Positions 18,428 to 41,400 of a stretch of DNA of 56,296 nt are shown piece after piece. Source of the stretch: a virus. Both the position numbers and the translations under genes were made by a program. The notes under the pieces were generated by a model. It did not search any database, was not told where the DNA came from, and saw nothing but the letters and a program-made list of their open reading frames with translations. Each line of letters begins with the position of its first letter. Positions within the stretch are counted from its first letter, which is position 1. The stretch is from IMG/VR virus record IMGVR_UViG_3300020438_000049, positions 1 through 56,296 of that record. One strand, written 5' to 3'.

Positions 18428-18638
18428 TGATGACTATCTCCTTTAATAGTGATTTAATTTCGTTAATTTCACTTTTTAAATCTGACAAATTCTTTTCAAT
18501 AACATCAACTCTTTCATCTTTTTCGACACCAACACTACGCCTAGCGATGTATTTGTCATACTCTAAGGTATTTGTGTTGATGATAGCATTGCTATTAGGA
18601 TCTCTAGAGAGATCCGCATGTCCTTTTACTTTAAACAT
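18417..18638 (-). CDS. Small coiled-coil protein (73 residues)
   Basis: MFKVKGHADLSRDPNSNAII begins a short N-terminal peptide containing NTNTLEYDKYIARRS. Residues about 40-73 are a strong helical heptad stretch (VDVIEKNLSDLKSEINEIKS then LLKEIVINV) expected to trimerise or dimerise. The start overlaps the stop of the DUF4815 giant (TAATG), indicating translational coupling, and the end overlaps the 128-residue gene. It could be an attachment or whisker-like component. I do not recognise a family. Confidence 0.8.
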   Translation of the reverse strand: MFKVKGHADLSRDPNSNAIINTNTLEYDKYIARRSVGVEKDERVDVIEKNLSDLKSEINEIKSLLKEIVINVK

Positions 18639-21600
18639 TATGCTAAAGCGATGACCCTTAGATTAGATAATCTAGGTGCATGAACTTGACTGGTAGATGT
18701 TAATACAAACTTAAGTCTGTATGATCTGAATGAAGGTAAGTTGTCAATAGTAAACGAATAAGAACTGAACTCAGATTCATCTGGAGTAAAGTTGTATTCA
18801 TTTTGACTAGGAATTAAAGTATCAGATCTACCATCACTCTTCTCTTTATCAATAATCTGACCTGAACCACTTAGGTTGTTATAACCAGGGAAAGGTGTAA
18901 AGATAGGAGTAAATCCTTCTTTTTCACTAATAGCATAGAATGCTCTTATGTCAGAGAAGTTATTAAGATAACCATCAACAATAACTTTCAAGGAAGTAGC
19001 AGAATTAGTCATTGCAACTTCTTTAGAGATATATTTAAATGCAGATGGATCACTTCCTAAAGTATTTACTCTAAAGTCATTTGCAAAATCACTAATAGCA
19101 TTATTGATTCTATTAGAAGTCGTAACTAAACTCATTCTTTGGGTATCAATAATTGGACTTACTCTACTATCAACAGTATTAAGAGTTAGTTTCATATTAA
19201 CTGATTTGTTACCCTCAACTACAGTATTCAATTTAGCATCTTCATTTATTTTGGATGCAATCAATCTAGGAGTATCTAAGTAATTTGCCTCATTCAATGT
19301 TACTGGTTCTACACCAAAGTTAACCCAAGGAGTCTCAGTACCATCAATACTCTGACCAGTAACTGTTCTAATTGTAGACTTAATAGCAGTTCCTTCAGGT
19401 GTCACGTTTTGAACCATTGGAGTAACAATTTCAAATGGTATGTTCTGTGTAGCGAATGACTCCCATCCACCAGCAGATTGATTTCTGTCAAGGTATAGAG
19501 CACGATAACCATTGTTATCACTTCTATCATCATTATCTACATTAAACTTCTCAGACATATCAAGTTTAATATGATATGAATCAAAAGTAATAGGATCTGA
19601 TTTAGTTACATCAGATAAATTATGTGTCTTGTTAATTCTATGTAAATTAACTCCACCAAGTTCATACTTATAAATTTCTGTTCCTGTTGAATAGTTCTGC
19701 TTAACTACATTAGATCCTCTAGCAATAAATCCACCTATTACATTACCAGTAACATTAGTATATTCAATAACTTCATCTCCAATTTTTGCATATCCTCTAT
19801 TAGTCGTTCCAACTCCAACTCCTTCAAAGGTTGAGAATATAGTTCCATCTTCTACTGATATACCATCTGTAGAATCAACTACATATGCTGCTGTTAATCT
19901 ACTTGGTTTAATATCAGACGTTACATTGCTGATACCTACCAAGTTATTTTGGAAGTACATTCCATGATTTCTATGATTAACTTTAACATGTAAACCATCT
20001 TCACCAATATCAAGAGCATCGATTTGAACATCTCCACCATTGAAATCATTAAATCCTGTAGTAATTCCATTACTACGTGTAACCATAACAGTATTACCTG
20101 CACCAGTTACGAAGTCTCCTTGAACACCATCAACAATTAACTGACTAGCAGCACCAATAGTAGTGATAGTTGCTCTAAAGTTTCTACCAGCTCCTTGTGT
20201 TCCTAGAGAACTAATACCAATTACATCACCTACCACATAACCATTTCCACCTAAAGCACCAGCACCATTTATTGTAACAGCAGTTACAGCACCAGAATTT
20301 ACAGTAACAACTGCTTTAGCACCCTTACCTTGTCCAGTAATAGTTTCTAGTGAAATGTTACTATAATTTAAAGCAGAACCACTAAGTGGTGTATATCCAA
20401 TACCAGCATTTGTTATCTGTAAAGCAGTAGCACTTCCTGCTGATCCAACATAGTTACCAGTTGCCTGAGATCCTTGTTGAGATATTGTATTTCCAAATTC
20501 AATAGTAGCATCTGCAGTAGTTGTACCAAGACCAACTCTTATCTGTCTAGATTTGAGTGATAATGAATCTGGTTGCAATCTTGCAATTTGATCATTTCCT
20601 TTTCCAAGAGTAGGACTGTAAATATCAACTGATCCAGACTCTACGAAATCTGCTCTGTAAAGAGTAAATTTAAGATCTTCCCATTGACTTGGTTCCCATG
20701 TAGAAGCATTTTGAGACTTAAACAGAGATCCTAGATAAGGTTGCTGTGAAACGAATGTTTTTGTAACTAGATCTTCTTCACCAACTCTAGAAATAAATAC
20801 GCTATATTTTGTAGAGTTTGATAATAAACATGCTGCATACTCTACTCCACCTTCAAGATATAATGGTGACTTGAATTGGAATGAAGTTGCAACAGATCCA
20901 TCATCAGACAGAACAACATCTTCTGGATTTAAAGATATCTCTGAGAAAGGAATAACCTTTTGTGTTGGATATCCATTGGTCGTTGACCTAATTTGTAAGG
21001 TAACGGGAACACCCATATCATCCTTACTCTTAAAGAAGCAATCAAATCTGGTTAAGTAAATACCAGTTTCATCTTCAACTATGAAAGATTCTGCAAGAGG
21101 ATCACTATTATTATTCCATGCAAGAGTTCTTTCTGTTGTATTACTACCGATAGCACGAGTACCTACTACTTGAGCAGTACCAATTGCTGTCCTAGTTACT
21201 CTATCTTCTTGCTGTCTTCTATGCTCTATTCTTGCATTTCTAACAGAAATAATAGTTTCCTGAACAGTATTAACAAATCCTCTAGCAATATAATCTTCTT
21301 CACCTCTTGTATCTGCACCTTTAGCTGAGTTACTTGGATTGTCTATTAGACTAAAGACCTTAGTTCCAACCTCAAATTTTGGATGATTTGTTTCACTTGG
21401 ATTTGGAATAAAGTAACTTCCTTGTAGAATACCATGTCTATCAGGAATCAATCTAACATTAGTAATTGTTGCTTGTGCTCCACTGCTTTGACCACGAAGA
21501 ACCATTCCACTTTCTATCCAACCAGAGTAATCTCCTTGTGGTTCATTTGATAATGAATATAAGTCAATATTGAGTATAGTCGATGCTCCAGTATATGAAG

Positions 21601-24600
21601 AGGATAAAGTACCATCATTATATGGATTTGTTCCATATACTTCAGTAGGAGAACTGAATACACCTTCTCTATGATTTGCTGAAGCAACTCTGAAAGATAT
21701 TGATGGAGTAGTTGTACTTGGCCAAGTTCCTGAAGATCCTGATCTAAGTGATTCTCCAATAACATTTTCACCAACTTGGAATACCCCAGATGACATACTA
21801 ATTTCTAGTAGTTTAGGGAATACATATCTATTAACATCCTGACCATCGAAGAATGCATACAACCTCTTCTTAGGTTTAAATCTCTTACCATCAACAGTAA
21901 TATTTCTAGATCTTACTGCTGGTGAAAGTTCTCTACTTATCAGTCTTGTACCTTGTGAAGTATTGTTTATATCTTCAACAACAAGAGTTCTTACTCCACT
22001 TCTAGAAGAATCTGTGCGACTTATTTGCTGATTTAGTGTTTCTTCATTTACTGTTCTTCTTGTTCTTTGAACTAATCTACGTCCTTGCCATTGAGTAGTA
22101 ACTCCTTCTACTCCTCCAGTTACTCTACGAGTGCTAACATCAGTTTCGGTTCCTGTCCATGTTGTCTGCCAAGAATTCCATACAGTAGGTGCAAATCCAG
22201 ATTGAGGATCTACATTAAACCTCCTTTGAGCATTTGCCATAGTAGAAGCAAAGTTACCCTGTCTGTTAATAATTCTTGGTTCAATATTGACTGTATCAAC
22301 CCATGTATCTCCAGCAGGTGTTAATTCAATACTTCCTTGCCAGAAAGGTACTAAGAAAGGAGTAACACTTTCAGTTCTTGTTCCGAAAGATTGTTTCAAC
22401 CACTCAACTTCAGAATATCCTAAAGTTAAAGCATCACCAGTTTTCTTAACGTTAATACCACCAGCTTCTGCAAACGCTAGATCTTCATTAGGATCAACAT
22501 TGGTCACAGGACCAAATATCATATCAACTGAAGCGGTAAAGTGCTTTGGTCTTAATTGCTTATTTGCTCTATCAATACTATTTTGGAATTCAATATTATC
22601 TTCTTGAGAATCGAATGAATTGAAATTGTCAACAAAGAAACCTGCCTTATACCTATTAGCACCATCTCTATCAGCAATAAACATATTATTGGTATTAGAT
22701 TCCAATAATGAAAGTGCTGTATAGTATTCTAGATTGTTAATTCTATTTTCTAATTTCCTTATATCAGAATTCTTATATCCTTTATGTGTTAAGAAGTTAA
22801 TTTTTACTTCTGATACATCATAAACATATGGAGGAAGAGTTGCTTGACATACTTCTAAAGAATCATCAACTCTGTTAGGAAAATCTGGTAGATCAGCAGG
22901 TTCTCCATAATTTATTTGGAATGTACCATCTTTATTCAAGAATATTCTATCAATTCTACCAAGATAATATGAGAATGATACTAGAAGTTGTTCATTAGAT
23001 GCTAGAATATTTGGAGCAGTATTACCTGTTTGTGCAAATGTTCTACCATAAAATTCTAAAGGAGATCTAGTAGCAGCAGAAGTTACTGTATAATTATCAA
23101 CTCTTGGTCTGATATCAATAATATCAGTGTTTCTATGACCGTCTATTGACTTAATTTCTTTAGAGAAGTTAAAGTTCTTATAAGAATCTACTGTAGTAAT
23201 ATCTCCAGTATCAGTGGAATTAAATGATGCTGTAGAGAAATATATTTTTATTTTTCTATCAGGTGCTTCATTTTCATCTTTTCTAGTTATAAATCCATAA
23301 TCATAGAAAGTGGATTGTTGACCACTATTGTAAGTATAATTATCAGAAATATCAAAACTTGGATTTTCTAGTTTTTGAATAGATGAGTATATGTTTGACT
23401 CACTAGTTAATATTCTTTCACCTTCTTTAAATATTTCATCATTCCTATAAAGTAAGCAAATTTTTGAATCATCAACTATCTCAGCAACAATAGCAACTGC
23501 ACCACTTGATTCTCCAGTAAAGATTTCTCCTAATAAGAAATCAGCAGTTGTAGTTGATGGGCTAGCAATATTAGTTAGAGTTAACTTAGGAGCAGATGGA
23601 TCAGTTGTATCTGAAGATTCAAATACACCATATAGATTGATAATATCTGGATTATTAAGAGATATTAGATCATCCTGAACTCTTGTTCCATATGGATAAG
23701 TACCAAATGTTAATCCATCATTGGCAGTAGTTGCACCTATACCAGATTCAGCATTAGAAGACTTATCTACAACAATACTATTAACAGCATTTCTTATTTT
23801 TAATTTTGATTTTGGATTTTTCTTTTGTAATGTAGCAATTACTTGCTTTTCAGTACCATCTTCACTTGGATTAAATCCTTTAAACTTAAGAGCACTTCTA
23901 CCATTATTGTCAGTATAAATCTCTATGTTATCTTCATTCAATTCATACTGTTGACCTGTACTACTAAAGTAACTATATCTTTCTGATTTAAATGGTAAGA
24001 AGAACTCACCCTCTGCACCTGTTGGGATAGTAGAAGAAGCAGTTTCTCCATTTGTCTGAGTAATATCAAATTTCTTACGTATAGTAATATATGCATCAGT
24101 AAGATCAATATCAGATATATGTTTTTTAGGTAATACGGTATAAAGACTATTATCAGCAGAATCTGTTAATGTAGAATTTATCTTTGCAAAATCTTGAGAA
24201 ACTACATCAGTTGTAGGTAAAGCACCAGCAACACCAGGGTTAACTGTTACATTCTTAATGAGTAAATCATTTGTTGAAATAGCACCAGTAGCATTTGTGG
24301 CAAAATTAACAGAAGTAACAACACCAACTACTGGAGTATCTTGCTTATCTGGATTAGTAAATTGAACCAAATCTCCAGATTTAAAGAAATCATTAACTGG
24401 GAATTTTACAGGTAATGAAACTGTAGATAATCCAGTATGAATCTGTTCACTTCCTACTGTCTTAGGATCAGCATCCCAGAAGAATGATTTAGTAATACTA
24501 GCAATACCAACATTCAATACAGGTCTTTGTACTATATCCGCACTAAAAGTACTAAAACCAGTAGAAGAACCTCCTGTTACAAATAATCCTTTAACATCTG

Positions 24601-26254
24601 ATACTCCATATGCAGTGATTCCTGTAGATATTCTACCGTTTGGTATTCCATTGAATATTAAAGATTCACTTGGTATAAAAGTACCTTCTGTTTCATAAAG
24701 ATTAAGAGTAGATCCATCAGTAACACTATCTTTCAAAAATCCTGTTGCACCACTATTAGAACCTTTAACATAGGTTGGAGTGGAAAGTGTAACTGCTTGG
24801 TTAACACTTAATTCAGTTACTGTTTGTATATCATAGAGACTAACATCCCACTGAGATACACCAGAATAAGTTCCAGATACATACCCAGACTTTAGTTTAA
24901 AATCATATACTCTAGCAACACCAATTTCTTTACCATAGTTATATGTTGGATCTGCTCCTACAACAAAAGTTCTATCATCTCTTAAACTTACAGTATAAGT
25001 ATTACCTAATCCAATTGCAGGTGTTCCATGTACGTTATTTAAAGTAAAGGTTGTTCCTGTATTATACTCAATAGGTTCATCCTTAATTTCTTTTGTAGTA
25101 CGTGTTTTAGGAGCATCTAAGAAAACACTTTCTGGTATCTCAACATCATATCCACGGACATATGCCTTACCAGGAGACATCTTGTAGACTATCTTATCAT
25201 CTGCAGCAGGTTGTCCACCATATGTAAACTCACCCTCTTTAAATATTCCATTGTTACCTAATCCATCATCTAGAGATTCTGCAACAACACTATCAAAATC
25301 CTTTACAGTAAAATCTCCATCAGTATCAAATATCTTTTCTGCTACAGTATCATCAAAAGCAGTTGCTCCAGATGAACCTGTTTTTGTTTTACTTCTAAGG
25401 TCACCATTTTTTACAGTTCCTAATTCTATGAAATTATTATCATCAAAATCATCTAATGACTTTTTAAATAGACTTGCAGTTATCTTTAATCTATCAGCAC
25501 CAGGTGCACCATAGTTATTATATCCTTGTGAATTATCATTCAGCGATTCATCTAAATCTGCATTGACAATTTCTTCTACTATGTTTAGACCAATTCTATA
25601 ATTAGGTGTATTTGAATACTGATCTAAAATTAAAGTCTCTTTATCTACAGTTATAAATTGCCCTCTAATAAAATAAACACCTTCATTTATCATGAAAGAT
25701 GATCCAGTAGCTGCATTATTACTGGATAGAGTTAATCCAAAAGAAGTTCCTGAAGTAATAGTAGTATTACCTAATAATCCAGATACTAATGTAGTGTTGC
25801 AGAATAACTCTTCTCCATCATTAAATTGTTGAGTAGAATTATTAGTGGTATTAGCACCGATATAATTCACATATAAGGTTAAAGTATTTTCTTCAGAATC
25901 TGCAGGAAGCAATACCTTATCAACCGCAGCACTAACACCAGATACAAGTCCTGTAACTTGTGTTCCTACTAATTGCTCTGCAAATGCAGAAACAGGTACT
26001 CCTTGATAAGTATTATTTAATTTTACAGCGTAATAGGATCTACTATAAGAAATATTTCCAGGTATTACTTTCTGACCTTCTTTAAAGAAGTGTTGACCAA
26101 ACTTCTCAACTTGGTTTTGAAGTATAGATTGTAGCGTTGTTAATTCTCTCGCCTGTACTGGATACCCAGGTTTAAATAAAACCTTATGGTAATCATTAGA
26201 CGAATCAAAGTCATCAAAATATGGTGCTACATTTAAGTTAGTTTGCTGTGGCAT
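18638..26254 (-). CDS. DUF4815 giant virion protein (2538 residues)
   Basis: The N-terminus (MPQQTNLNVAPYFDDFDSSN, YHKVLFKPGYPVQARELTTL, QSILQNQVEKFGQHFFKEG) is the DUF4815 signature of large T4-like cyanophage virion proteins. The body is an array of beta domains. One around residues 1715-1840 (NSDPLAESFIVEDETGIYLT, RFDCFFKSKDDMGVPVTLQI, EYAACLLSNSTKYSVFISRV) looks like a carbohydrate-binding-type sandwich. Near residues 1930-2020 are Gly-Tyr repeats (NAGIGYTPLSG, LGGNGYVVGD) like those in gp14. A terminal beta domain ends in SFRSYRLKFVLTSTSQVHAP. It occupies the T4 gene 9-12 position between gp8 and gp13, so a peripheral baseplate or fibre role is likely. No proteolytic or lytic motif was seen. 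Confidence 0.92.
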   Translation of the reverse strand: MPQQTNLNVAPYFDDFDSSNDYHKVLFKPGYPVQARELTTLQSILQNQVEKFGQHFFKEGQKVIPGNISYSRSYYAVKLNNTYQGVPVSAFAEQLVGTQVTGLVSGVSAAVDKVLLPADSEENTLTLYVNYIGANTTNNSTQQFNDGEELFCNTTLVSGLLGNTTITSGTSFGLTLSSNNAATGSSFMINEGVYFIRGQFITVDKETLILDQYSNTPNYRIGLNIVEEIVNADLDESLNDNSQGYNNYGAPGADRLKITASLFKKSLDDFDDNNFIELGTVKNGDLRSKTKTGSSGATAFDDTVAEKIFDTDGDFTVKDFDSVVAESLDDGLGNNGIFKEGEFTYGGQPAADDKIVYKMSPGKAYVRGYDVEIPESVFLDAPKTRTTKEIKDEPIEYNTGTTFTLNNVHGTPAIGLGNTYTVSLRDDRTFVVGADPTYNYGKEIGVARVYDFKLKSGYVSGTYSGVSQWDVSLYDIQTVTELSVNQAVTLSTPTYVKGSNSGATGFLKDSVTDGSTLNLYETEGTFIPSESLIFNGIPNGRISTGITAYGVSDVKGLFVTGGSSTGFSTFSADIVQRPVLNVGIASITKSFFWDADPKTVGSEQIHTGLSTVSLPVKFPVNDFFKSGDLVQFTNPDKQDTPVVGVVTSVNFATNATGAISTNDLLIKNVTVNPGVAGALPTTDVVSQDFAKINSTLTDSADNSLYTVLPKKHISDIDLTDAYITIRKKFDITQTNGETASSTIPTGAEGEFFLPFKSERYSYFSSTGQQYELNEDNIEIYTDNNGRSALKFKGFNPSEDGTEKQVIATLQKKNPKSKLKIRNAVNSIVVDKSSNAESGIGATTANDGLTFGTYPYGTRVQDDLISLNNPDIINLYGVFESSDTTDPSAPKLTLTNIASPSTTTADFLLGEIFTGESSGAVAIVAEIVDDSKICLLYRNDEIFKEGERILTSESNIYSSIQKLENPSFDISDNYTYNSGQQSTFYDYGFITRKDENEAPDRKIKIYFSTASFNSTDTGDITTVDSYKNFNFSKEIKSIDGHRNTDIIDIRPRVDNYTVTSAATRSPLEFYGRTFAQTGNTAPNILASNEQLLVSFSYYLGRIDRIFLNKDGTFQINYGEPADLPDFPNRVDDSLEVCQATLPPYVYDVSEVKINFLTHKGYKNSDIRKLENRINNLEYYTALSLLESNTNNMFIADRDGANRYKAGFFVDNFNSFDSQEDNIEFQNSIDRANKQLRPKHFTASVDMIFGPVTNVDPNEDLAFAEAGGINVKKTGDALTLGYSEVEWLKQSFGTRTESVTPFLVPFWQGSIELTPAGDTWVDTVNIEPRIINRQGNFASTMANAQRRFNVDPQSGFAPTVWNSWQTTWTGTETDVSTRRVTGGVEGVTTQWQGRRLVQRTRRTVNEETLNQQISRTDSSRSGVRTLVVEDINNTSQGTRLISRELSPAVRSRNITVDGKRFKPKKRLYAFFDGQDVNRYVFPKLLEISMSSGVFQVGENVIGESLRSGSSGTWPSTTTPSISFRVASANHREGVFSSPTEVYGTNPYNDGTLSSSYTGASTILNIDLYSLSNEPQGDYSGWIESGMVLRGQSSGAQATITNVRLIPDRHGILQGSYFIPNPSETNHPKFEVGTKVFSLIDNPSNSAKGADTRGEEDYIARGFVNTVQETIISVRNARIEHRRQQEDRVTRTAIGTAQVVGTRAIGSNTTERTLAWNNNSDPLAESFIVEDETGIYLTRFDCFFKSKDDMGVPVTLQIRSTTNGYPTQKVIPFSEISLNPEDVVLSDDGSVATSFQFKSPLYLEGGVEYAACLLSNSTKYSVFISRVGEEDLVTKTFVSQQPYLGSLFKSQNASTWEPSQWEDLKFTLYRADFVESGSVDIYSPTLGKGNDQIARLQPDSLSLKSRQIRVGLGTTTADATIEFGNTISQQGSQATGNYVGSAGSATALQITNAGIGYTPLSGSALNYSNISLETITGQGKGAKAVVTVNSGAVTAVTINGAGALGGNGYVVGDVIGISSLGTQGAGRNFRATITTIGAASQLIVDGVQGDFVTGAGNTVMVTRSNGITTGFNDFNGGDVQIDALDIGEDGLHVKVNHRNHGMYFQNNLVGISNVTSDIKPSRLTAAYVVDSTDGISVEDGTIFSTFEGVGVGTTNRGYAKIGDEVIEYTNVTGNVIGGFIARGSNVVKQNYSTGTEIYKYELGGVNLHRINKTHNLSDVTKSDPITFDSYHIKLDMSEKFNVDNDDRSDNNGYRALYLDRNQSAGGWESFATQNIPFEIVTPMVQNVTPEGTAIKSTIRTVTGQSIDGTETPWVNFGVEPVTLNEANYLDTPRLIASKINEDAKLNTVVEGNKSVNMKLTLNTVDSRVSPIIDTQRMSLVTTSNRINNAISDFANDFRVNTLGSDPSAFKYISKEVAMTNSATSLKVIVDGYLNNFSDIRAFYAISEKEGFTPIFTPFPGYNNLSGSGQIIDKEKSDGRSDTLIPSQNEYNFTPDESEFSSYSFTIDNLPSFRSYRLKFVLTSTSQVHAPRLSNLRVIALA

Positions 26255-26270
26255 AATACTTTATAATCCT

Positions 26271-27818
26271 TTAGAATTGCAAGATGACTTTAATATCTTC
26301 TTTTTGGTTTACAGATCTGTTTACAGATGGTCTGTTGTCAACGTAAATAATGTTTCCTGAATATCTTTTAACTTCAGGGGCAGAAATACCGTCGGTAAAA
26401 TCTTGACCAAGATTATATGTCCTATTATTTATAGAGGTGCTGAAACCGCTAAAGGAGGAGTCTATCTGTAAATTTGATCCAGTTGATGGAGTTATTACCA
26501 GAGTACCACCAGTAGAAGGACTGCTAGTAAATTCTAGTTGTTCATAACCATATGGTGCATCTGTTACAGCAGAACCAACTGTATTAAATCCAACCCTATC
26601 CTGCCAATACTTTAACACTCCTGTTGTTTGATCGTAATTAACTACTCTACCAGCAGCAGTAAGACCTGTACCTATTGTTTGAATAAAGGTGGCATCTGGA
26701 GTGAATGTAGCAGAACTATATCCAATACCAGTCAATCTAATTGCATTCAATGCACTTGCTTTATCTAATGTTAAAGGGAGTGTGCTGTTAGGTGCAAGAG
26801 GATTCTCTACTACACCAATTCTAGCAAACTGGTTATTAGTAATGAAATCAGGGTTTTCTGTATCATTCTCTAGTCTTGAATACATTAAAATATTAAATGC
26901 ACCAAGTTCACGATATATATCTGCACCATGACCACCTGATGGTGGAATAATAACATTAAATTCTGCAGGAGTAGTCGCAATAGGAACTCCACCTGCTGCT
27001 AAATCTAATGTACCGTAAGTATATCCAGAACCTTGACTAGATATCGTAACAGAATCTATTTTTAAATCATTATTGACAACAACTGTTGCTTCTGCACCAT
27101 TTCCATCACCATTGATAGGAACTCTTGTATATGATGTTGATATTGCTCCAACATTAACACCAGCATTTTGAACAGTAACTATCTTAACAGAACCGTCAAT
27201 TGCATTGTCTCTAACAGGAGCATTATCTGCAGAAGTACTCCATTCCTGTGGAACTGGAATAAAATCAGAAGTTTCAAATTTTATAATTTCATTCGGTTTA
27301 ATAGTAAAAAGATATTTCCAAATATATCCATCATTACTAGTTCCTGCGGATCTTGGTTCTAAATCAGTAAATGTTGGTTGATCTAATGAAATTTGTCCAT
27401 TTGGATAGTCTGGACTTGTGCCATTTTGTAGACACATATAGACTCGGTAATCATCATTTATAACATAATATGATGCATTATATAAATTAGTTGCCTTAGA
27501 TATTGCCGATGTATTTGACCTACTATAGTCATGACGATACATGTCATATTTTGTACCAGACTTCCAAATTCTTTTGGTTACAACCTGTCTAATATCTGCA
27601 TTGTTAATTTTCTTCATTGCAATCATAGTGTCATAATATGACCTCTCTTGATCGAATGAATCTTTTGGAGTAGGTGGATCAGTGTCCCAATTATTCTGAA
27701 CATCAGACGGATTAGGTAGACCTATAAAAGAATAGTAAGAATTTTCGCTACTAGCTACACCAGCAACAAAATTCTTTGCGTTTAATATTCTAATCTGATC
27801 GGTTATAATTGCAGACAT
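26271..27818 (-). CDS. gp8: gp8 baseplate wedge protein
   Basis: The 515 residues match T4 gp8 (334 residues) at both ends. The N-terminal part has SYYSFIGLPNPSD, TKRIWKSGTKYDMYRHDYS, YRVYMCLQNGTSPDYPNG and TSNDGYIWKYLFTIKPNEII (T4 DGYVWEYLFEIPPD). The last strand GNIIYVDNRPSVNRSVNQKE followed by DIKVILQF matches T4 GEMIYMENRPPIIMAMDQTE and INILFTF. The extra 180 residues lie in the middle and include a Gly-Tyr repeat (ISSQGSGYTYGTLDLA). Gp8 is a wedge component linking gp6, gp7 and gp10 in T4. CTAAATA lies 23 bases upstream, containing the stop of the protease gene. Confidence 0.93.
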   Translation of the reverse strand: MSAIITDQIRILNAKNFVAGVASSENSYYSFIGLPNPSDVQNNWDTDPPTPKDSFDQERSYYDTMIAMKKINNADIRQVVTKRIWKSGTKYDMYRHDYSRSNTSAISKATNLYNASYYVINDDYRVYMCLQNGTSPDYPNGQISLDQPTFTDLEPRSAGTSNDGYIWKYLFTIKPNEIIKFETSDFIPVPQEWSTSADNAPVRDNAIDGSVKIVTVQNAGVNVGAISTSYTRVPINGDGNGAEATVVVNNDLKIDSVTISSQGSGYTYGTLDLAAGGVPIATTPAEFNVIIPPSGGHGADIYRELGAFNILMYSRLENDTENPDFITNNQFARIGVVENPLAPNSTLPLTLDKASALNAIRLTGIGYSSATFTPDATFIQTIGTGLTAAGRVVNYDQTTGVLKYWQDRVGFNTVGSAVTDAPYGYEQLEFTSSPSTGGTLVITPSTGSNLQIDSSFSGFSTSINNRTYNLGQDFTDGISAPEVKRYSGNIIYVDNRPSVNRSVNQKEDIKVILQF

Positions 27819-27840: not shown

Positions 27841-27847
27841 TATTTAG
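27841..27847 (-). promoter_or_regulatory. Late-promoter-like CTAAATA(AATAAATA) for gp8, containing a stop codon
   Basis: CTAAATA lies 23 bases before the gp8 ATG and extends into a tandem AATAAATAAA run. Its TAA (27846-27844) is the stop codon of the upstream protease-cupredoxin gene. Confidence 0.6.
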
Positions 27848-30800
27848 GAAGTTATAACGATGTTACCACGCATAGAGGCATGGTATTGGCAGTTATACCA
27901 ATAAGTACCTGGAGTGACACCTGCGGTATCCCAAACTACTACAGCATTTTGAGTGCCGTTATTAGTAAGTCCACTTGGAACTTCGGAAGGTGATGGTTGC
28001 CCAGTACCTTCCCTATTACTAATATAGAAAGGATGACCACTAGCAATTATGGTTAATTGCAACACATCTCCTGTCTTTATAGTAATCGTTGCATTATTTG
28101 CTTCTTGTACTGTTCCATTTCTATCATAACCTTCCTCTACGTGATACCAACCAGAACCACCATGTCCAATAGTAAAGTTCCACTGATAGGAATCAGGGAA
28201 TTGTTCTGTCTTAGTTATTACCTTTCTTGGTCTTGGATATGTAAGACCTCCATCAGTAATTGTAATAGTTCCAACCATTCCACCATGATATTGGCAGATA
28301 TAATAATAAGTTCCAGGAGAAGATGGAGTCCAAGTAACAGTTCCAGATTCAATACCATTGTTAGTTACACCATCTGCACCACTACCAGTACCAGTAGTAT
28401 TTGCTGTCTTAATCCAGAATGGATGTCCAGTAACACTAACATTGAATGTTAATGTATCTCCAACTCTAGCTTGTACTGATACATTATTTCCACTAATATT
28501 TCCACTACCATCAGTTCCATTAAGTACATATGCAGATGCACCAGAATTAGTTACTCCAATAGTATAATTCTTAGCATTCTTAGTTCTATTCTTCCAATTT
28601 TCATGTGGATATACTATAGCAGAATCAGGTCGTTTTTTCTCAAAGTAAAGATATCTATTATTACTATTAGCTAGATCTTTGTAATTTTGCGACCACAACG
28701 TCATTTTTGATACATTGGTTGAAGGGAAAGTCCTTGCAGTTGATGGATCAGACCACCATAAAATACGAACAGCACCACCACCTCCTCTACAAGATTGGTA
28801 ACCACCAGCTGTATATGTTCCTGCTCCACCACCATATAATCCACCAGCTCTACCATTTGGAGCACTTGCACTAACACTTGGAGTAGTACCACCAGAACCA
28901 CCGCCACCACCTGCTTGACTATTACCACCAACACCATTAGTTCCTTCACCATATATTCCTACTCCACCACCACCAGCACCTTGAGCAACTCCAGTTGACC
29001 ATCCACCGCCGCCACCGCCGCCACCTCCAGTACCATCTGCTCCCTGAGTGTTGCCATAATATCCACCCATTCCACCATTTCCTGAATATCCACCAGCACC
29101 ACCGCCTCCACCATTATCATTCGTGTTACCACTACCACCATTACCACCACCATCTCCTACATAAGTTCCACCAGTTCCACCATTGGCAGTATTTCTTCCA
29201 CCTTCACCATTAACAGTAGTCGAATTTATAAAATATGAATCTCCACCAGATAAATTGGCACTTCCTGCTCCAACTTCTACGGTATATGTCTGACCTGCTG
29301 TTACTGGGATATTATTTTTCCATCCCAATCCACCTCCACCAGCATTTCTATCCCCTCCACCAGCACCAATTACTACAGCAGACACCTGAGTTACGCCAGC
29401 AGGACACGTCCATGTATAGGTTCCTGCTGTTGTCCATTCTGCTTCACCATAACCTGCTGCAGAACCATCTGAAGAAACTTGATCTGCTTTTGCAAAATCT
29501 TTTATATGTTGTATTGCATCTTCCTGAGTCATATTTGGTTCTTGTTCTGCAAGACATGCAAGATATCCAGCAACTTGGGGACCAGACATACTAGTTCCAT
29601 CAATATCTGCTAGTTTAAAATTAGCATCTCTTGGATCATTTACTAGAGTTCCATATCCTTCTGTAGATGCAGTAGTATCAAAAACGGAAGAAATGATATT
29701 TGACCCTGGAGCGAAGATATCAACTCTTGCACCTATATTACTAAAACTGGATTTATATTCATCTTTAACATCACCAACAGAACCTACACATATTGCATTA
29801 GCATCTGCACCTGGACTTGATCCTTTAGAATGATAATATGTTGATGCACCAATTTGATAATAATTGTTAAAATCAGAACCAGTAGGTAAATCACACATCC
29901 AATAAGAGTTACCAGCAGAACTGACAACAATAATACCGTCATTTATAGCATCTTGTACATCAGCCCCAACAGAACTAACTCTTACAGGAACTCTGTACAA
30001 GGTAGTATTATATGGACAAGGAACTCCATTTGCTTCTAATATAACTTTTCTTTCAGCATCTGTTCCACTTACTGACGTACTAGTTCCTCTATAAACAACA
30101 TTCGTAATGCTATTAAGATCTGGACTACCTTGACTATAACCCCAACTGTGATTTGTTATGGTTGGATTTTTTCTTCCAGTTTTTGGATTAACACCCTTCC
30201 ATTTATGAAATTCTCTTAGATAATCAAAAAGATAAACTGCAAAAGAAGAATATGATGTACCAGATCGATTATTAACTAGGTCTGTACTAAATGCTATATT
30301 ATAAAGATTAGCGTCTCTTGCCCATCCTTGCGTATTACCTCCAGCAGTACCAGCAACGTGAGTTCCGTGATTACTTTGACCTGGATTACCATACCCAGTA
30401 GCACTGTAAGTATAAGTTTTTCCAGCAGCGTTACTATCACCTATATTAGCTGAATATTGAAACCAATCGATCTGATTCATTCTAGAACCAGTATTACTAA
30501 GAGGATTTACCCAAAACTCTGGGTGTTCATGATTTACATGACTATCTACGATTACAAGATCAACATTCTTTCCAGAAGAACCTGTTTGTATTGTATCATT
30601 GAGAACCATTTGCCCATCAACTCCCCAATTGGCAGTTTGGACACCATCAACAACTCTTTTTAATCCCCAGTTAAGATCACCACTAGAAAAAGTCGTGTTC
30701 TTTTGGAAATCACCACTTTGTGGACCCCAAAGAGGAGTTTCTTCTAAACCTCTTTCATTAGGTGCTAATTCTATATTGATTACATTTGGATGATCTTTTA

Positions 30801-30990
30801 ATTTACTTACGTCTAATTCACTTAACTTATAGTGTGTATTTCTACTAACATTTCTTCTGGCAAGACATTCTACTTCCCTATCTGGACAATATCCATCACT
30901 TCCAGAAGTTTCCATCTCATCATAAAAATTTCCCAAATCGCCATGCTCTCTAACAGTGACGATATATTCTCTCTTTATATCACTGAGCAT
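27844..30990 (-). CDS. Subtilisin-like (S8) protease fused to Gly-rich region and two cupredoxin domains
   Basis: The 1048-residue protein has four parts. Residues 1-80 resemble an I9-type propeptide (REYIVTVREHG, VSKLKDHPNVINIELAP). Residues about 105-510 are a peptidase S8 domain: VIVDSH (Asp149), NHGTHVAGTAGG (His208), VVSSAGNS (Asn361) and DGTSMSGPQVAGY (Ser467), a complete catalytic set. Residues about 518-743 form a Gly-rich adhesin-like domain opening TAGTYTWTCPAGVTQVSAVV. Residues about 815-912 and 930-1048 are two cupredoxin domains with ligand sets His856, Cys899, His902, Met905 and His986, Cys1034, His1037, Met1040. No signal peptide or membrane segment is seen. It sits among baseplate genes between a fibre-like gene and gp8, so it is probably virion-borne; that location is inference. 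Host-surface proteolysis, self-maturation and copper binding are possible roles. Confidence 0.9.
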   Translation of the reverse strand: MLSDIKREYIVTVREHGDLGNFYDEMETSGSDGYCPDREVECLARRNVSRNTHYKLSELDVSKLKDHPNVINIELAPNERGLEETPLWGPQSGDFQKNTTFSSGDLNWGLKRVVDGVQTANWGVDGQMVLNDTIQTGSSGKNVDLVIVDSHVNHEHPEFWVNPLSNTGSRMNQIDWFQYSANIGDSNAAGKTYTYSATGYGNPGQSNHGTHVAGTAGGNTQGWARDANLYNIAFSTDLVNNRSGTSYSSFAVYLFDYLREFHKWKGVNPKTGRKNPTITNHSWGYSQGSPDLNSITNVVYRGTSTSVSGTDAERKVILEANGVPCPYNTTLYRVPVRVSSVGADVQDAINDGIIVVSSAGNSYWMCDLPTGSDFNNYYQIGASTYYHSKGSSPGADANAICVGSVGDVKDEYKSSFSNIGARVDIFAPGSNIISSVFDTTASTEGYGTLVNDPRDANFKLADIDGTSMSGPQVAGYLACLAEQEPNMTQEDAIQHIKDFAKADQVSSDGSAAGYGEAEWTTAGTYTWTCPAGVTQVSAVVIGAGGGDRNAGGGGLGWKNNIPVTAGQTYTVEVGAGSANLSGGDSYFINSTTVNGEGGRNTANGGTGGTYVGDGGGNGGSGNTNDNGGGGGAGGYSGNGGMGGYYGNTQGADGTGGGGGGGGGWSTGVAQGAGGGGVGIYGEGTNGVGGNSQAGGGGGSGGTTPSVSASAPNGRAGGLYGGGAGTYTAGGYQSCRGGGGAVRILWWSDPSTARTFPSTNVSKMTLWSQNYKDLANSNNRYLYFEKKRPDSAIVYPHENWKNRTKNAKNYTIGVTNSGASAYVLNGTDGSGNISGNNVSVQARVGDTLTFNVSVTGHPFWIKTANTTGTGSGADGVTNNGIESGTVTWTPSSPGTYYYICQYHGGMVGTITITDGGLTYPRPRKVITKTEQFPDSYQWNFTIGHGGSGWYHVEEGYDRNGTVQEANNATITIKTGDVLQLTIIASGHPFYISNREGTGQPSPSEVPSGLTNNGTQNAVVVWDTAGVTPGTYWYNCQYHASMRGNIVITS

Positions 30991-32443: not shown

Positions 32444-32450
32444 TATTTAG
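32444..32450 (-). promoter_or_regulatory. Late-promoter-like CTAAATA for the fibre gene, containing a stop codon
   Basis: CTAAATA lies 23 bases before the ATG. Its TAA (32449-32447) is the stop codon of the 5150-residue gene. Confidence 0.55.
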
Positions 32451-35400
32451 ACTATGTAATTGATTGATCTCAAAGGTTCAAATCTTCTTACGATAGAAGA
32501 AGTGTGAATACCTGTAGCAGATGTAGAAGTCTCTCCCACACCAATACCATTGCCACCATAGAATTTGTAACTGTTTTGTAATTTAGATTTGGTTTGTAAC
32601 TTACCCCAACTATAATCACCAATTCCTATAGGAGTCTCGATAGTACCAACATAGGAATTACCAGACCCAACTACAGAGTTGTCCATAGTATATATCTCAC
32701 TATCAAATGTGATTCCTGTAGAGTCAAAGGTAATTGTAGATAATCCAGTAATTCTAGAACCTACTCTTCTTACCATTGTTACTCCAACACCAGGAATATT
32801 AACTGTCTTATTCTCAACACTACCTACAACGTAGATGTTATTGACAAATTCAGTTCCTATTGCAACCACAGTATCATTAAGATCATATGATCTTATTAGA
32901 GTATGTGCTACACCAACTGTAGAGTTCTTAACAACAAAGAAATCACCTTGCTGTATCTGACTCAATGTAATAGCAGATCCTACTATGGATGCATCACGTA
33001 AATCAGAACCGTATGGAATATGGAAGTCAAATAACATAGTATCACTGTTAGCAATAGTTGTAGTACCAAATCCAACAATTACTCCAGAATCACCTGCGAA
33101 CCAGTTAATTGGTTTTGTTTCTTCAGTTAATGTTGGTGGAGAAATAAGAACCTGTGGTATAGAAGTATATCCTTCACCATTGTAAGTAATAGAAACAGCA
33201 GAAATAGATCCTGTGTTGTTTACCGTTGCAGTAGCAAGAGCAGTAGATCCAATTCCAATAGGATTTTGAATAGAAACTGTAGGAGCAGTAGTATATCCTA
33301 CACCACCATCAGTAACTGTAATTGAAATTATTCCATCACCAGAAACTGTTGCTGTAGCACTTGCACCAACTTGAGTTTCCATATCAACGAAAGTAACTTT
33401 CTTCTGGAATAGCAAGTATGGATCAACATTATTCTCATTCTTACCATCAAACAATGGTCTTAAGTTGTCAACATATATTTCAGTAGATCCAGCAGAAATT
33501 GCTTTAGTTATGTAAGCAGTTGGTGAAATAACTGGTTCATACAATTCTCTTGCCTTACCTACCTCAGTTTCATCAATAATCATATCAGCAGTTTGACGAC
33601 ACCAAGTAACTGGACGTAGTAAATTAGAATCACTAACGTTTCCTGGACCTGTATATGGATCTGTTTCAGCAGTGTCTATTGATAAGATGTTAGTAGCAAT
33701 CCTTTCGTCTTCTTCTAGACTCCAATGCTGACCTCTTTCAACATCGTTATCAATTTCTAATGTGTCTCCACGTTTTACAGTATCAATTATGTTTCTAAAG
33801 ACAACATCAACATCACCACTTCCCTTATAGAATAGGATCTTAGACGTATCACCTTTCTTAGGTGCTTCACCAAAGGTAATTACACTACCACCGTCAAATC
33901 TAAATCCTTTACCAGGAACCTGTAATATATCATTGACAAATACTAATAGTGTATCTTCAACATTGATATTAGATCCTTCTGAAGATTTAATAGCAATGAG
34001 GTTACCACCAACTTTTATTGGGAAGTTAATTCTATTAGCATCAAATAGATGATCAACATTGTCTAAGGTTTGTAACATACCCATAGACCAACCATTAAAT
34101 TCGTCAGTGAATATATCTTGAACAGTAAGTTGGAATTCTTCAAAGTTAGATGTTGTTGGAATACCTAAAGTACCACCAGAGGAAACAGTCAATTTCTCAC
34201 CAACACCATAGCGATATCCACTATTTTTAATAGAGAAGCTAATAATACTAGAACCTTGTCCGACAATAATATCAGCAGTAGCATATGTTCCAACACCTGC
34301 AGCAGCAGATCCACTGTAAACCAATGGAATATTAGAATACGAAAGTGGTTGGTCGATTACAACATCTAAGAATGGATCAACCTTACCACCTCTTGCATAG
34401 TTGTGATGTCTGGTTGATAATCCACTATTAACTTCAAATGTAGTACTATCAAGTACCTTAACAACCACACTACCGTCAATAGCAGGATCAGCACCACTAG
34501 GTGAAAGGTTCTTTGCTCTAGGAGCAACAATTGCTTGCTGAACTTTACCACCTGAACTATAGAATGTTGGTACTGTAGAAACTCCGATATTAACAGAAAT
34601 AACAGTTGATCCAACACTAACTGCATTTGCTACAGTTCCACCAACATATGTGTGATTATAGTTACCACCACTCTTAACAGCACCAGCAGTTGCACTGATG
34701 AATGTATGTGGATAGTTATGACTAATAGGACCAGGATTTACTGGATCATTAACATTGATTAGAATAGTAGTTGTAGTAACTGATAGAATCTTTATCGAAG
34801 TATTGTATACGTAATCAGCACCACTACTAGTATTAGCACCAGATGCACGAGGATATGTTCTATTCTGTACCCCACCATTATTGCATGAGAAGTTTAATGA
34901 ATTAGCAGCAAGTCTAATACTTGTACCTGCAGTTAGAGTATGGAGACCAATTGTTAGTTCCATTTCTCCTGATTCGGGATTATATGTTGCAGCACTCACA
35001 TTATGAGCAACTTCTGGAGTTGTTCCAACATTTAATGTAATTGTACCAGCAGATTGATTAGAACTACTAATTTTAACAAACTTATCATGTATAGGATCAG
35101 TTAGTCTTGGATAAGGATGGTTAGTAGCATTACTATCCATCGCACAAGTGAATACTAATGAATTAGTTTTAATCTTGACCGAATCATCTATTTTTAATCC
35201 ATGATTAGCACCAATTGTTAAAACTAAGTTACCATTAGATGGTATGTAAGTTGCATTAGTGACGTTATGTTGAACTAAAGTTCCAATACCGATAACATCT
35301 ACACCATTGTAATTCTTATCTGGTTTTCTTGGATACTTATGTTGTGTAGCATTTCCATCCTTAGTACATGTGAATGTTAAGGACTCTTTTGCTATCTTAA

Positions 35401-38400
35401 TGTTTCTACCAGCAACTAGTGAATGAGGTTCACTAAGAGTCATGGTCATAATACCAGTAGAAGCAGTATAATCTGCATTAGTTACACTGTAATTAACAGA
35501 AGTACTTAAACCAACATCTAATGTAATTGTATTGTTGGTTGTTGCAGCAACTGATACTGATGTCTGATAGATTGGATCAGTTCCTCTTGGATAAGTATGA
35601 GGACTTACATAATCATCCATTGAACAAGTGAATGTCAAACTATCATCTGAAATTCTGATAGATTCACCTGCTTTGGTTAGTCCATTAGCAGTTGCTGATA
35701 CAAATGTATGTGGAGTTACGTTAGTAGAAGGAATTCTATCTACAACTCTAACAGTAAAGGTATTTGCTGTTACCTTACTGATTGGTAACCACTTATTACT
35801 TGCAGGATCTGGTTCTACAACACCATTACCTTTATGAACTGCTGCTCTTGGATATGAGTGGTTTGAATTATTACCATCTTGACCGCATGTGAATACTATA
35901 GCATTATCTGCAATCTTAATCTTATCACCATCTGACATGTTATGAGCAGATGCAGTTGTCATGGTCATGATACCAGATACACCATCATAAGTTACATTAT
36001 TGACACTGAATGTAGATGATCCACGTAATGCATGATCTCCAATTGTCAATACTAACTTACCAGTAGATCCTAAGTAAGATGCATCAGTAACATCATACTT
36101 AACTAGAGGTGATTTACCTACAAGAAGTGTAATAGTATTCTGACTTGTTCCTACAATTGCAGTTGCTATTCCTGCTACTGGATCTGTTGCTCTTGGATAT
36201 GAGTGGTTGGTTGTATTACCATCCTGCTTACATGTAAATGTTACTGCATTTGCATTAACTGTAGCAGTATCATCAACTGTATAAGGATGATTTGGAATAG
36301 TAAGTACTAATTCACCTTTTGCAGCATCATAAGTTGCGTCAATTGGTGTTGTGGTTCCTATTCCTGTTACACTAACTCCACCATCAACAGCACTTGCAAA
36401 TGTATGATTATAATCACCGCCAGTAACTACCGCACCAGTTGATGCACTAACGAATCTATGTGTGTGATCTCCACCAGTTAATAACGCATCAGCAGATGTT
36501 CCTCCAGCCCAAGTATGTGTATATTGATCTGAAGGACCAGCAGCACCAACATCAACTGTTATTTTGCCATTATTGTAAACTAATCCATTTTGAAGTGCAG
36601 AATGGAATGCATGAATAGTAGTATTTGATGAAGGTCTTTGAGTGAAATCTAAAACATTAACTTTGAATGTATTGACTGTTACATCATAAACTTTCAACCA
36701 TCTATCAATTGAATGATCACCTTTTCTTGGATATGCATGAACTGTTTCATAATTATCCTTATCACATGTAAATGATATTGAATCTTCTAGTAGTTTAACA
36801 AATTTTCCATTACCAAATCCATGATTGTTGATAGTGATAGTCATCACACCTTCATATGGATCATAAACAGCATTAGTTACTGTATAATGTGCTCCATCAT
36901 CTAGGATATTGATTGGTCTATCATATGCAATATCTTTTCCTCTTGGATATACGTGTGTTGTAGCACCATTATCCAATCCACATGTCATTGCAAGTCCAGT
37001 AAATATAACTTGCTTATCGCTTCCAATTCCATGAGAAGTGGAAGTCATTACAGTCATTATACCAGATACATTGTCATATTGTGCATCATATATGCTAACA
37101 GCAGGAGCATAATCACAAGTGAATGCTATTCCAGAAAGAATAACCATTTCAGTTTCTGACAACCCGTGAGGATTGATTGTGGTTATTGTAGTAATACCAT
37201 TAGTTCTTGTATAATCTACATGCTGAATCTCACTTGGTGCATTGAATACTTGAGGATTAGTAACAGCGATTCCTGTAACATGTCCACCAGATACTGATGC
37301 AGTACCAATATCAACAACTTTACTTGTAATGTTAGGTGTTGTTCTAACTCCTACATTAACAACTGTCTGAACTCCAGATCTATATCCAGATCCACTATTA
37401 CCAACACTAACTGAACCAATTGTTCCTGCAATAGAAACATTAGGGGATCCACCAGCATCAACTAATGGTTGATATCCTAAACCTTCTTCAGATCCAACGG
37501 AAACAATTACACCACCTCTTGGGAAAGAAGAAATACCAACATCATTAGTAATTGTTCTTGCAGTACCAACAAAAGTAACAGATGTAATACCAGCACTCTG
37601 CTCTAAGAAGTAATCACCAACTAATCCTGGTTCTTGGAAGATGTCGTTAATTAAAACAACTGCATTATCTTGTTCAACACCAGTAAAGTTACCGCCTTCT
37701 GTTTTTAATGTAAATGTGCTGTTAATCGCATCAAATTCAGAAGAAATGTCATCAAAGATATAGTTGTTGCTATAAGCTTCTGTTGATGTATCGGGAATAC
37801 CTGAACGCATAAAGGATCTTCCTTGGAAACTTGATCCAGTCTCGATACCTACCCAATCTCTCTCATCAGGTTCATTTGTTGTAGAACTGAATGGTACATT
37901 ACCATAAGGTGCTTCTACAAAGTTAAGAACGTTATCAACAATATTATAATTACCTTGAACTTTAGTAACTAATGCACTAGTTGCAGCATATCCAACTTTA
38001 GTACCTAACCAAGGTCTACGTACTCTTATTCCATTAGCGGTTCCAATACCAACTCCTTCAACCTTCATTATCTCATCACCAATCTTAATCAAATCTCCAC
38101 CAAATATAGAAGTAATACTTCCAACTTGTACTAAGTTGTCTGTAGTGAATAATTGTTGATCTAGATGAGTTGTTAGTGCTGTAGATACAACTGGAGACTG
38201 AATAATATTATCAAGAGCAACAATAACCTTTGTATTCTGTCTATCGGCAACAAATCTCATTGTTGTACCAATACCAACACTAGAAATGTCTAGGATTTCA
38301 GGTGTTCCTAATAATGCATCTTCTGCAGATCCTGCAAGTTTAATCTTCTCCTCATCAACTTTAACAGCATAAACTGTACGAGGAAGTTTGTCAGTCTGAC

Positions 38401-41400
38401 CAATACCTGAAATAGTTGTAGTAACAATACCAATATTAGTGCTACTTCCTAATCCTATTGGTTCGTATGTAAGTTTTTCACCAGTAACAAAGTAATGGTT
38501 TGGTAACTTAATTGTATTATCTAAAATACTAATAATTTCAGTATCACTTCCATCAAATTCTCTATCAAAAATAGGATAGTTGTTATGTGTTAAATTAAAT
38601 GCTCTCTTAATATCACTATGAGTACCTTCATAAGTACCAGATTCAGATTGAATTAGTGCATTATCAAAAGTAATTTGATCTTGTAAATCATCCTGAACCT
38701 TAAGGGCATTCATGAAATATGTTACTCTCGATGCTTTATTAGCAGGAGCAGTAAATGTTACTTCTACAAATGAAGTTCCGCCTGGATTCTTAACAAGTTC
38801 ATAACCAAATGTACCTAATCCAGCAACATTATTATGACTTAGAACTCCCCATTCTGCTTCGTATACTTCACCAGTTTGTAATCCTTCATTATAATCATCA
38901 ATAATCATATGTTCACTGAAGTATCTTATGGCACTAGCAGTACCTTGAGCACCAGTTTCAACAAATGCTATGAAGTATGCACCATCAAAACCATCAGTAG
39001 TTGCATCCAATTGAGTTGGATACCTCATAATCACTTGTGGAGTTGGCATACCTGATGCAGATATCTGAACTGCATCGCTCTCTAAACGAGCATGTTTCAT
39101 ATTAACTTGTGTTCCAAAACCAACAAGACTTTCATTAAGTTCCTTATAGATGCAGTTAATTACTGTAAGTACTCTAAAGAACTGCTGCCCTGTTCCTGAA
39201 GTTGTAAGATCTATTGCAATATTTTCTTTTGCATTTTCTTCAGTTGTTGCTAATTGAATAATATCCGCACTTACATTGATAACATAATAAGTTGTACCGT
39301 CAGTAAGACCACCAATCGGTAATGCACCTTCTGTATACTTTAATCCAGATCCAGTTGATAACTTATGATTTACCATAGTAATGGTGTCATCAGTATCATT
39401 AACCTCAGAAGGTTCTACTGTAAATAATCTATTAGTTGCAGGATATGGAATAAAATCAATCTTAACTTTAACACCGTCATTATAAGCATGATATGTTCCC
39501 ATACCAGCACTAGCAACTTCCCCAACATCAGTGGTTATCTGAGGATATTCTATTATATCAATTTTACCAAATGCATCAACTATGAAATTGAGTTCATCCA
39601 TTTCATATTCATTACTCGATCCTGTAATTTCTACAAGAACCTTTCCACCCAGAGTATAATTAGCATGAAACTCAGCAATAGTAGTAGTTCCACCAGAAAT
39701 ATCAAAACTACCAGTATTGATAGTAGTACTACCGATAGTTGTTGTACCAATTCCTGCTAAATTATCATCGATATTGTAAGATAAGCATGTAATATCAAAA
39801 TCATTTACAGTACTTCTTGTTGGATAGAATAATAACTGTCCATCAGTTCCTTGTACTGTGAAATCAAATGTTCCAAGATCATATTCAGTTTCTACTCTTG
39901 CATATTGACTGATATAAGCATTGTAGTTGTCGTTGATAATATCAACAATCATAATCTGTCTTTCACCAAGATATCTCTTATCTCTAACGTAAGTAATGTA
40001 CTTCTGAGCTCTTACATCTGCTAATGTAAAGTTACTTACTACACTGAATGGAGTAGGTCTAGGATTACTGTTGAATGTTGGACTTATATCATCAATAGAA
40101 AGAACCCTGTTACCAATAGACTCAAAATAGTCAGTAAGTGTCTTACTTGTAAATCTTATTTCGTTTGATAGAGTGTTATTACCAATCTGTAATGCATTTT
40201 CACTAACCAAATCAAAGTCAGCAACACAATTAAGATTACCTACACCAATATTCTCAGATACAACATCAGAGAATGTTAAAGAAGTAGTAACACCAACTAC
40301 CATAGATGCAGGTACATGGTTTTCAACACCTGTACCACCACCTTTGATATAATAACCAGAACCACCTTCAGGAAGTGAAGAATCGGAAACTAAATCATAA
40401 TCAGAGTATTTCTTAAATCCTAGAGTATGGTTTAAGGTAGATACAACATCTTGCCAAGTATCATATGCAATTCTAGACTTAAGTGCATATGAGAAGTTTT
40501 GATAATAGAGACTATCTTGTATTCTTTGCTGATTATCATCTAAGAAACCAGAATTTGTTTCCCATCCACTAGATACCTTCGATGATACATCTAATACCAT
40601 ATTAGAATCAAAGGTTTTTATAGAAGAAGTTATTCCACTAGCTGCAGAAGATGATCCAATAATTTGCTCATTAACTATAAAGTTATCATTAGAAATAACT
40701 TTTAATTCACCAGTAACTGGATTCCAAGATTGCACAACACCAGTTGCACTATTAGATACTATAGTTTCTTTTGTAGCAAAAATATTATTTTTTAAAGAAA
40801 TATCAAATATTGGGAAATCTCTTTCAGGTATTACTCTACCAACAGAATTAACTACATCATATTCACCAGGTTGTTCACCAGATGGTAAATATCCATCAAG
40901 ATTGTAGAATATAGAACCAATACCACCAAGATTAGGAGTTGTCTTACTAACAACAAACATCTTATACTCATATTCTGATGAATTGAATCCAAATCCAGTG
41001 GAACCAACTCCAACACTAACGTTTTCAACTAAGAACTTATCACCAATACTTAATGGGAATTCTTGACTGAATCCAGTGTTAAATCCAATTACTACTTCTT
41101 TAGTTGCTGTAGTAAATCCTATCGTAGCAATACCAATTCCATTAGTATTATTAACTGGTAAAATTGTAGGAATAATAGAATTTAAATTCTCCTTATTCTT
41201 GATTATTGATACTTGATCATCACCTAACTTATACTTTATCTCAATACCATCAATTCTCTTCTTAGTTCTTCCATCAAAGACAAGTAAAGTCGGTGCTTTA
41301 ATGTATCCACGACCTGCAGATGAAATACCAACAGAATCTAATCTAGAAAGAGCATCTAAGGTTAATACTTGAGGTAAATTTGTAGTTGGTCTTAATGTTG

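Follow-up and report, generated by a model that had tools for sequence, protein, structure and literature searches.

Two predicted cupredoxin domains with complete His-Cys-His-Met sets on a subtilase-like protein from the baseplate region of a T4-like cyanophage

Phage tail-type proteins carry, as a mobile module, a cupredoxin domain with an intact type-1-copper-like ligand set, and the viral DNA analyzed here (the window, positions 1 to 56,296 of IMG/VR record IMGVR_UViG_3300020438_000049) encodes a protein with two predicted domains of this kind. We consider it probable that these are separately acquired modules with sites selected to bind metal, most likely copper, and that a subtilase-like tail or baseplate protein displays them at its C-terminal end. 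The proposal of metal binding is based on conservation and fold, and that of copper on the closest relatives and on the axial Met; copper would then occupy the sites. Blue copper sites are usually regarded as free electron carriers or as parts of oxidases.

Gene product and genomic setting

The protein (Table 1) contains all of the S8 catalytic motifs (IVDS at residue 147, HGTHVAG at 208, AGN at 359, and GTSMSGP at 465), which, together with a PF00082 score well above the cut-off of 21.8 bits, place it in the Peptidase S8 family. It has only ten cysteines; the last 300 residues hold just two, both of them ligand cysteines, in the motifs CQYHGGM (residue 899) and CQYHASM (residue 1034), and GHPF begins at 855 in the first copy and at 985 in the second. 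Scanning all six frames of the window disclosed no further C-x2-H-x2-M occurrence, and when the record was searched with a profile, no cupredoxin domains other than these two were returned. The first-pass annotation, which had reported two type-1 copper sites at 27847-28548, was correct by translation in its coordinates, frame, and all eight residues (H856/C899/H902/M905 and H986/C1034/H1037/M1040). Two copper-type domains do lie in that interval, but it spans residues 815-1048, which are only the C-terminal part of an S8-containing protein; similarly, the proposal that the carrier is a probable structural protein agrees with its setting between gp8-like and gp9/10-like baseplate genes, but its subtilase nature had not been mentioned.

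Table 1. Coordinates in the window of the S8-cupredoxin gene, its predicted features, and its neighbors
Feature	Positions	Strand	Evidence
Neighbor of 515 aa, baseplate wedge protein resembling T4 gp8	26271..27818	-	PF09215 E 4.3e-15; phrog_438 E 4.4e-160
ORF of the S8-cupredoxin protein, 1048 aa (S8 peptidase, then glycine-rich stretch, then both cupredoxin domains)	27844..30990	-	phrog_9158 E 2.3e-147
Predicted cupredoxin domain 2, residues 939-1047	27850..28176	-	Profile E 3.0e-35; tandem AlphaFold model; VIA match to rusticyanin
Domain 2 ligand loop, Cys1034-x2-His1037-x2-Met1040	27871..27891	-	Residues seen; predicted ligands
Domain 2 first ligand, His986	28033..28035	-	Residue seen in translation; predicted ligand
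Predicted cupredoxin domain 1, residues 813-912	28255..28554	-	Profile E 4.2e-41; AlphaFold pLDDT 98.5; PDB fold matches
Domain 1 ligand loop, Cys899-x2-His902-x2-Met905	28276..28296	-	Residues seen; predicted ligands
Domain 1 first ligand, His856	28423..28425	-	Residue seen in translation; predicted ligand
Glycine-rich stretch, residues 520-745	28756..29433	-	PF21722 E 6.3e-4, 20.3 bits, under cut-off 24.3
Peptidase S8 (subtilase) domain, residues 140-515	29446..30573	-	PF00082 E 8.6e-27, 94.6 bits
Neighbor with T4 gp9/10-like N-terminus, 475 aa	30994..32421	-	PF07880 E 3.9e-6; N-terminal matches to phrog_677, phrog_6942, and phrog_958

On sequence grounds, the window represents part of the genome of a T4-like marine cyanophage. 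It encodes portal, gp23, scaffold, and neck proteins together with terminase and sheath families, and its DNA matches are mainly to Synechococcus phages, all at less than 90% identity. In phages S-CREM1 and S-H38, a related S8 gene likewise lies amid annotated baseplate genes. We tentatively place the S8-cupredoxin protein in the virion because of gene order, which, with the family names, points to a probable component of the tail or baseplate. Two ORFs in the baseplate region of the window are exceptionally long, one encoding 5150 aa (32447-47899) and the other 2538 aa (18638-26254); the latter contains DUF4815. Elsewhere, at 50576-51235, the window encodes a product that matches phrog_3704, named ferredoxin (E 1.2e-113), with no Pfam model at E 0.01, and the ferredoxin name of this family may be wrong.

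Predicted fold and relation to known copper proteins

Both domains are predicted to adopt the cupredoxin beta-sandwich fold, in line with the first-pass annotation, and this assignment draws on AlphaFold models and on fold matches in the PDB. The model of domain 1, built with 60 aligned relatives, reached a pLDDT of 98.5 and a pTM of 0.90, and among the Foldseek matches listed for it, all 50 were cupredoxin-fold proteins, including rusticyanin, pseudoazurin, plastocyanin, amicyanin, auracyanin, laccases, and CuNIR. VIA matched domain 1 to CuNIR 2dv6 (Z 10.5, rmsd 2.0, 87 aligned) and to rusticyanin 2cal (Z 10.4, rmsd 2.0, 89 aligned). The tandem model of both domains (pLDDT 87.8, pTM 0.49) is of low confidence at residues 917-927 and its two-domain matches have rmsd values of 15-22; domain 2 taken from it matched 2cal with Z 10.8 and rmsd 2.3 (96 aligned). 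In the AlphaFold models of both domains, the first His is placed between two strands, the Cys at a strand end, and the second His and the Met in the loop preceding the last strand.

The complete ligand set that had been read from both copies is present in the translation and corresponds to that of known copper proteins. With phmmer, the four residues of the domain 1 site pair up with the His, Cys, His, and Met ligands of pseudoazurin 3tu6 (E 7e-4), and the four of domain 2 with those of plastocyanin 1kdi, in a weak match (E 0.13); the domain 2 loop aligns without a gap to that of amicyanin 1sfd, so that the amicyanin-type C-x2-H-x2-M spacing is upheld, again by a weak match (E 0.31). Profile alignments to some plastocyanins and one CuNIR displace the first His by two positions because Pro is paired with Pro, the phage motif being His-Pro, whereas plastocyanin and CuNIR have His-Asn. 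The Copper-bind model, PF00127, matched residues 838-911 when the whole protein was searched (E 5.9e-5), with 23.9 bits where the cut-off is 21.2; domain 1 alone scored just under that cut-off (21.0 bits), and the genome search gave 19.6 bits. Scores for the plastocyanin model TIGR02656 (23.4 bits) and the amicyanin model TIGR02657 (19.9 bits) lay below the respective cut-offs of 87.85 and 110.2. Amicyanin, pseudoazurin, and plastocyanin, the PF00127 proteins, share a predicted fold and the His-Cys-His-Met set with the phage domains, and amicyanin also shares the loop spacing, but these type-1 copper proteins are free carriers, whereas the phage domains are fused to protease and tail-type proteins. 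Rusticyanin and auracyanin, which are among the best matches by fold and sequence, differ from the phage domains in having a longer ligand loop and in being free electron carriers.

This comparison bears on two other readings of the sites. It is quite unlikely that they hold a metal other than copper, such as zinc, as a purely structural ion: a zinc-bound cupredoxin-like domain (4hcg) is among the fold matches, and other metals would be favored if the protein is assembled in a cytoplasm where free copper is scarce, but the closest solved relatives by both sequence and fold are copper proteins, and an axial Met with a single Cys and two His residues is generally recognized as the blue copper set. 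Far less probable is an auxiliary gene of the plastocyanin type that has become fused to a phage protein and acts as an electron carrier in the photosynthetic electron flow of the host. Cyanophages do carry free petE, as mentioned in a comparison of T4-like cyanophages (PMC3037559), and petE is, like the sequence described here, a cupredoxin-type gene; its product is a free auxiliary protein, whereas the window domains are part of a tail-region gene product. The plastocyanin reading is disfavored by the low score with the plastocyanin model and by embedding in tail-type proteins, since most copies of the domain sit in long tail-type frames, and the ligand loop is shorter than that of plastocyanin. 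In addition, P-SSM2 has a separate plastocyanin-like frame of 131 aa, the loop of which is of the plastocyanin type and which is probably its petE, so both kinds of cupredoxin coexist in that phage.

Conservation of the ligands and origin of the two copies

In an alignment of 60 domains, the ligands were kept in 57, 57, 57, and 58 rows, and their columns ranked 1 to 4 of 100 in relative entropy, above all core residues, although these figures carry an ascertainment bias, since the loci had been fetched with patterns, some of which contained ligand residues. To counter it, phages found by tblastn were searched whole, and the ligand columns were masked in a profile that was then run against all frames of the loci already collected, by which the bias is lessened and not removed. 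The masked profile recovered 122 distinct pieces (that is, pieces not identical, near-identical rows being counted), 110 with His-Cys-His-Met, 6 variant, and 6 incomplete at the ligand columns. The variant rows read YNNM, HSDM, HCHQ, FAVM, LAVA, and HCHA, and four of the six have lost at least two ligands; when columns were shuffled over 116 rows, the 6 incomplete ones being dropped, a count of four rows with at least two losses was reached in 21 of 20,000 shuffles, a rough guide, as the rows are related and relatedness is ignored. Most copies from named phages have the full set even at profile matches of 1e-5 to 1e-10, the clear exceptions being S-B43 (FAVM) and S-CAM3 (HCHA), and several pieces are cut short. 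One further copy, from L139 (TCHM), looks like an alignment slip. Relatives mostly keep the ligands and do not lose them freely, in keeping with the first-pass annotation, and a ligand set that is retained complete in most cases, or else disappears jointly, fits the prediction of metal binding. A chance motif was ruled out by fold and conservation.

The ligand-poor copies are those at L066:4973-5272 (YNNM), the second copy of L054 (HSDM), L025:6805-7104 (LAVA), and L124 from S-B43 (FAVM). Each has lost two or more ligands, and the fold signal and profile match are still good, which means that the fold can serve without metal. The losses in L054 and L066 look related to each other; since L077 has an intact counterpart as its second copy, ligands were lost within one protein lineage. 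These copies speak for the view that the domains of the window might be metal-free decoration, Ig-like surface domains in which Cys, His, and Met are kept for packing or by ancestry, and a few members do match Ig-like or filamin Pfam models weakly. We nevertheless regard this account as unlikely, given that the ligand columns outrank every core residue, that the ligands tend to go together, and that the full set persists in copies with only distant profile matches. A different kind of variant was seen in L083, a 160-aa frame from an Acidobacteria MAG, in which Gln replaces the axial Met (HCHQ). Stellacyanin has an axial Gln.

The first-pass annotation described the copies as lying in tandem, but they are not tandem duplicates. 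In a tree of 117 distinct domains, domain 2 clusters with domains from the C-termini of further S8 proteins (support 1.0), whereas domain 1 clusters with a domain of a different phage protein, the 2193-aa non-S8 frame L008 (support 0.993; 84% identity). Local tandem duplication was ruled out by this tree together with the 37% identity between the copies, and the second site was, from the placement of the two domains, gained by module exchange and not by duplication in place. Because the copies are not duplicates, their agreement is stronger evidence than could be known from the window sequence at first reading. Cyanophage S8 peptidases (phrog_9158; ACG-2014e, S-H9-1, and S-CAM4) have the same order, S8 followed by a C-terminal cupredoxin; the S-H9-1 protein has one C-terminal copy, whereas the window protein has an additional copy of other origin.

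Spread of the module and its possible role

The domain was found at 36 places in 18 of 20 named phage records, which were hand-chosen from homology-search matches and searched whole; the P-SSM2 frame noted above is one of these places. A second set of 20 viral records that was searched consisted of the window record together with 19 selected among the pattern-fetched loci. No copy was found in the records of S-CREM1 and S-H38, the S8 proteins of which (52% and 49% identity, respectively) are the closest by identity among the named phages; since related S8 proteases thus occur in phages without it, the cupredoxin domain is an accessory module. Module-bearing proteins match tail fiber, baseplate, and virion families, and among the top fold matches in BFVD are cyanophage S8 proteins, a cyanophage baseplate connector, and what is annotated as a putative proximal tail fiber of a cyanophage. 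The module is also present in an Actinomycetia phage and, among bacteria, in Flavobacterium, PS1-clade/Rhodobiaceae, and Neomarinimicrobiota sequences, where the proteins bearing it look secreted or surface-bound. No cyanobacteria were represented among 12 cellular loci, which carries little weight, as these were obtained with two strict patterns. Widespread and sometimes ligand-dead, the module makes the window locus one case of a broad family.

In the reading that we favor, the His-Cys-His-Met sites of both domains are probably under selection to bind metal, most likely copper, and the two domains would form the displayed C-terminal end of a subtilase-like protein in the tail or baseplate of this cyanophage. 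The metal-loaded beta-sandwich would keep its shape outside the cell and touch the envelope of the host, on which the protease domain would act at the same time; an electron-transfer role would not be needed. More speculatively, the particles of many aquatic phages could be metalloproteins that carry on their tails type-1 copper acquired from the water or from the lysing host and use it in attachment, as a copper counterpart of the proposed iron Trojan horse, an extension to which we assign a small likelihood; virions would in that case also constitute a pool of organically bound copper. A similarly small likelihood is given to a Trojan horse in which virion-loaded copper is recognized by host surface receptors during attachment. 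The module does occur on tail-type proteins, and an iron version has been published (PMC11705849), but some related phages are without the domain, and it has cellular relatives outside phages, so attachment cannot be its sole use.

In the open-licence PMC papers searched, we found no description of virion proteins of phages that have cupredoxin-type or plastocyanin-like domains, and the literature yielded no virion proteomics for the S8-cupredoxin protein. The closest published idea is that of iron held by HxH motifs in phage tail fibers; such fibers (T4 gp37; alterophage R22Y) likewise have conserved metal-ligand residues on tail proteins (PMC11705849), but the fold, ligands, and metal differ from those of the phage cupredoxin domains. 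The 2010 comparison of T4-like cyanophages recorded an S8 peptidase only in P-HM1 and P-HM2, and the portion of it available contains no mention of a copper domain (PMC3037559). If the explanation that we favor is correct, a mobile cupredoxin module with an intact site on the tail proteins of marine and freshwater phages would bring copper into the infection apparatus, and the debate over phages as oceanic metal ligands, so far centered on iron, would have to include copper.

The cellular loci have architectures of their own. Sequences of the PS1 clade, Rhodobiaceae, and similar bacteria (L084-L087, L090, L092, and L093) encode proteins of about 430-450 aa with two cupredoxin-like stretches, one of them diverged, and Flavobacterium sequences (L089, L091, and L094) encode proteins of about 516-639 aa in which repeated HPAHIH-type stretches are followed by a C-terminal cupredoxin domain of the phage type. 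BFVD matches of the same fold include "beta-sandwich proteins" of Pithovirus and Marseillevirus and a "blue type 1 copper protein" of Fadolivirus; giant viruses may therefore carry related domains.
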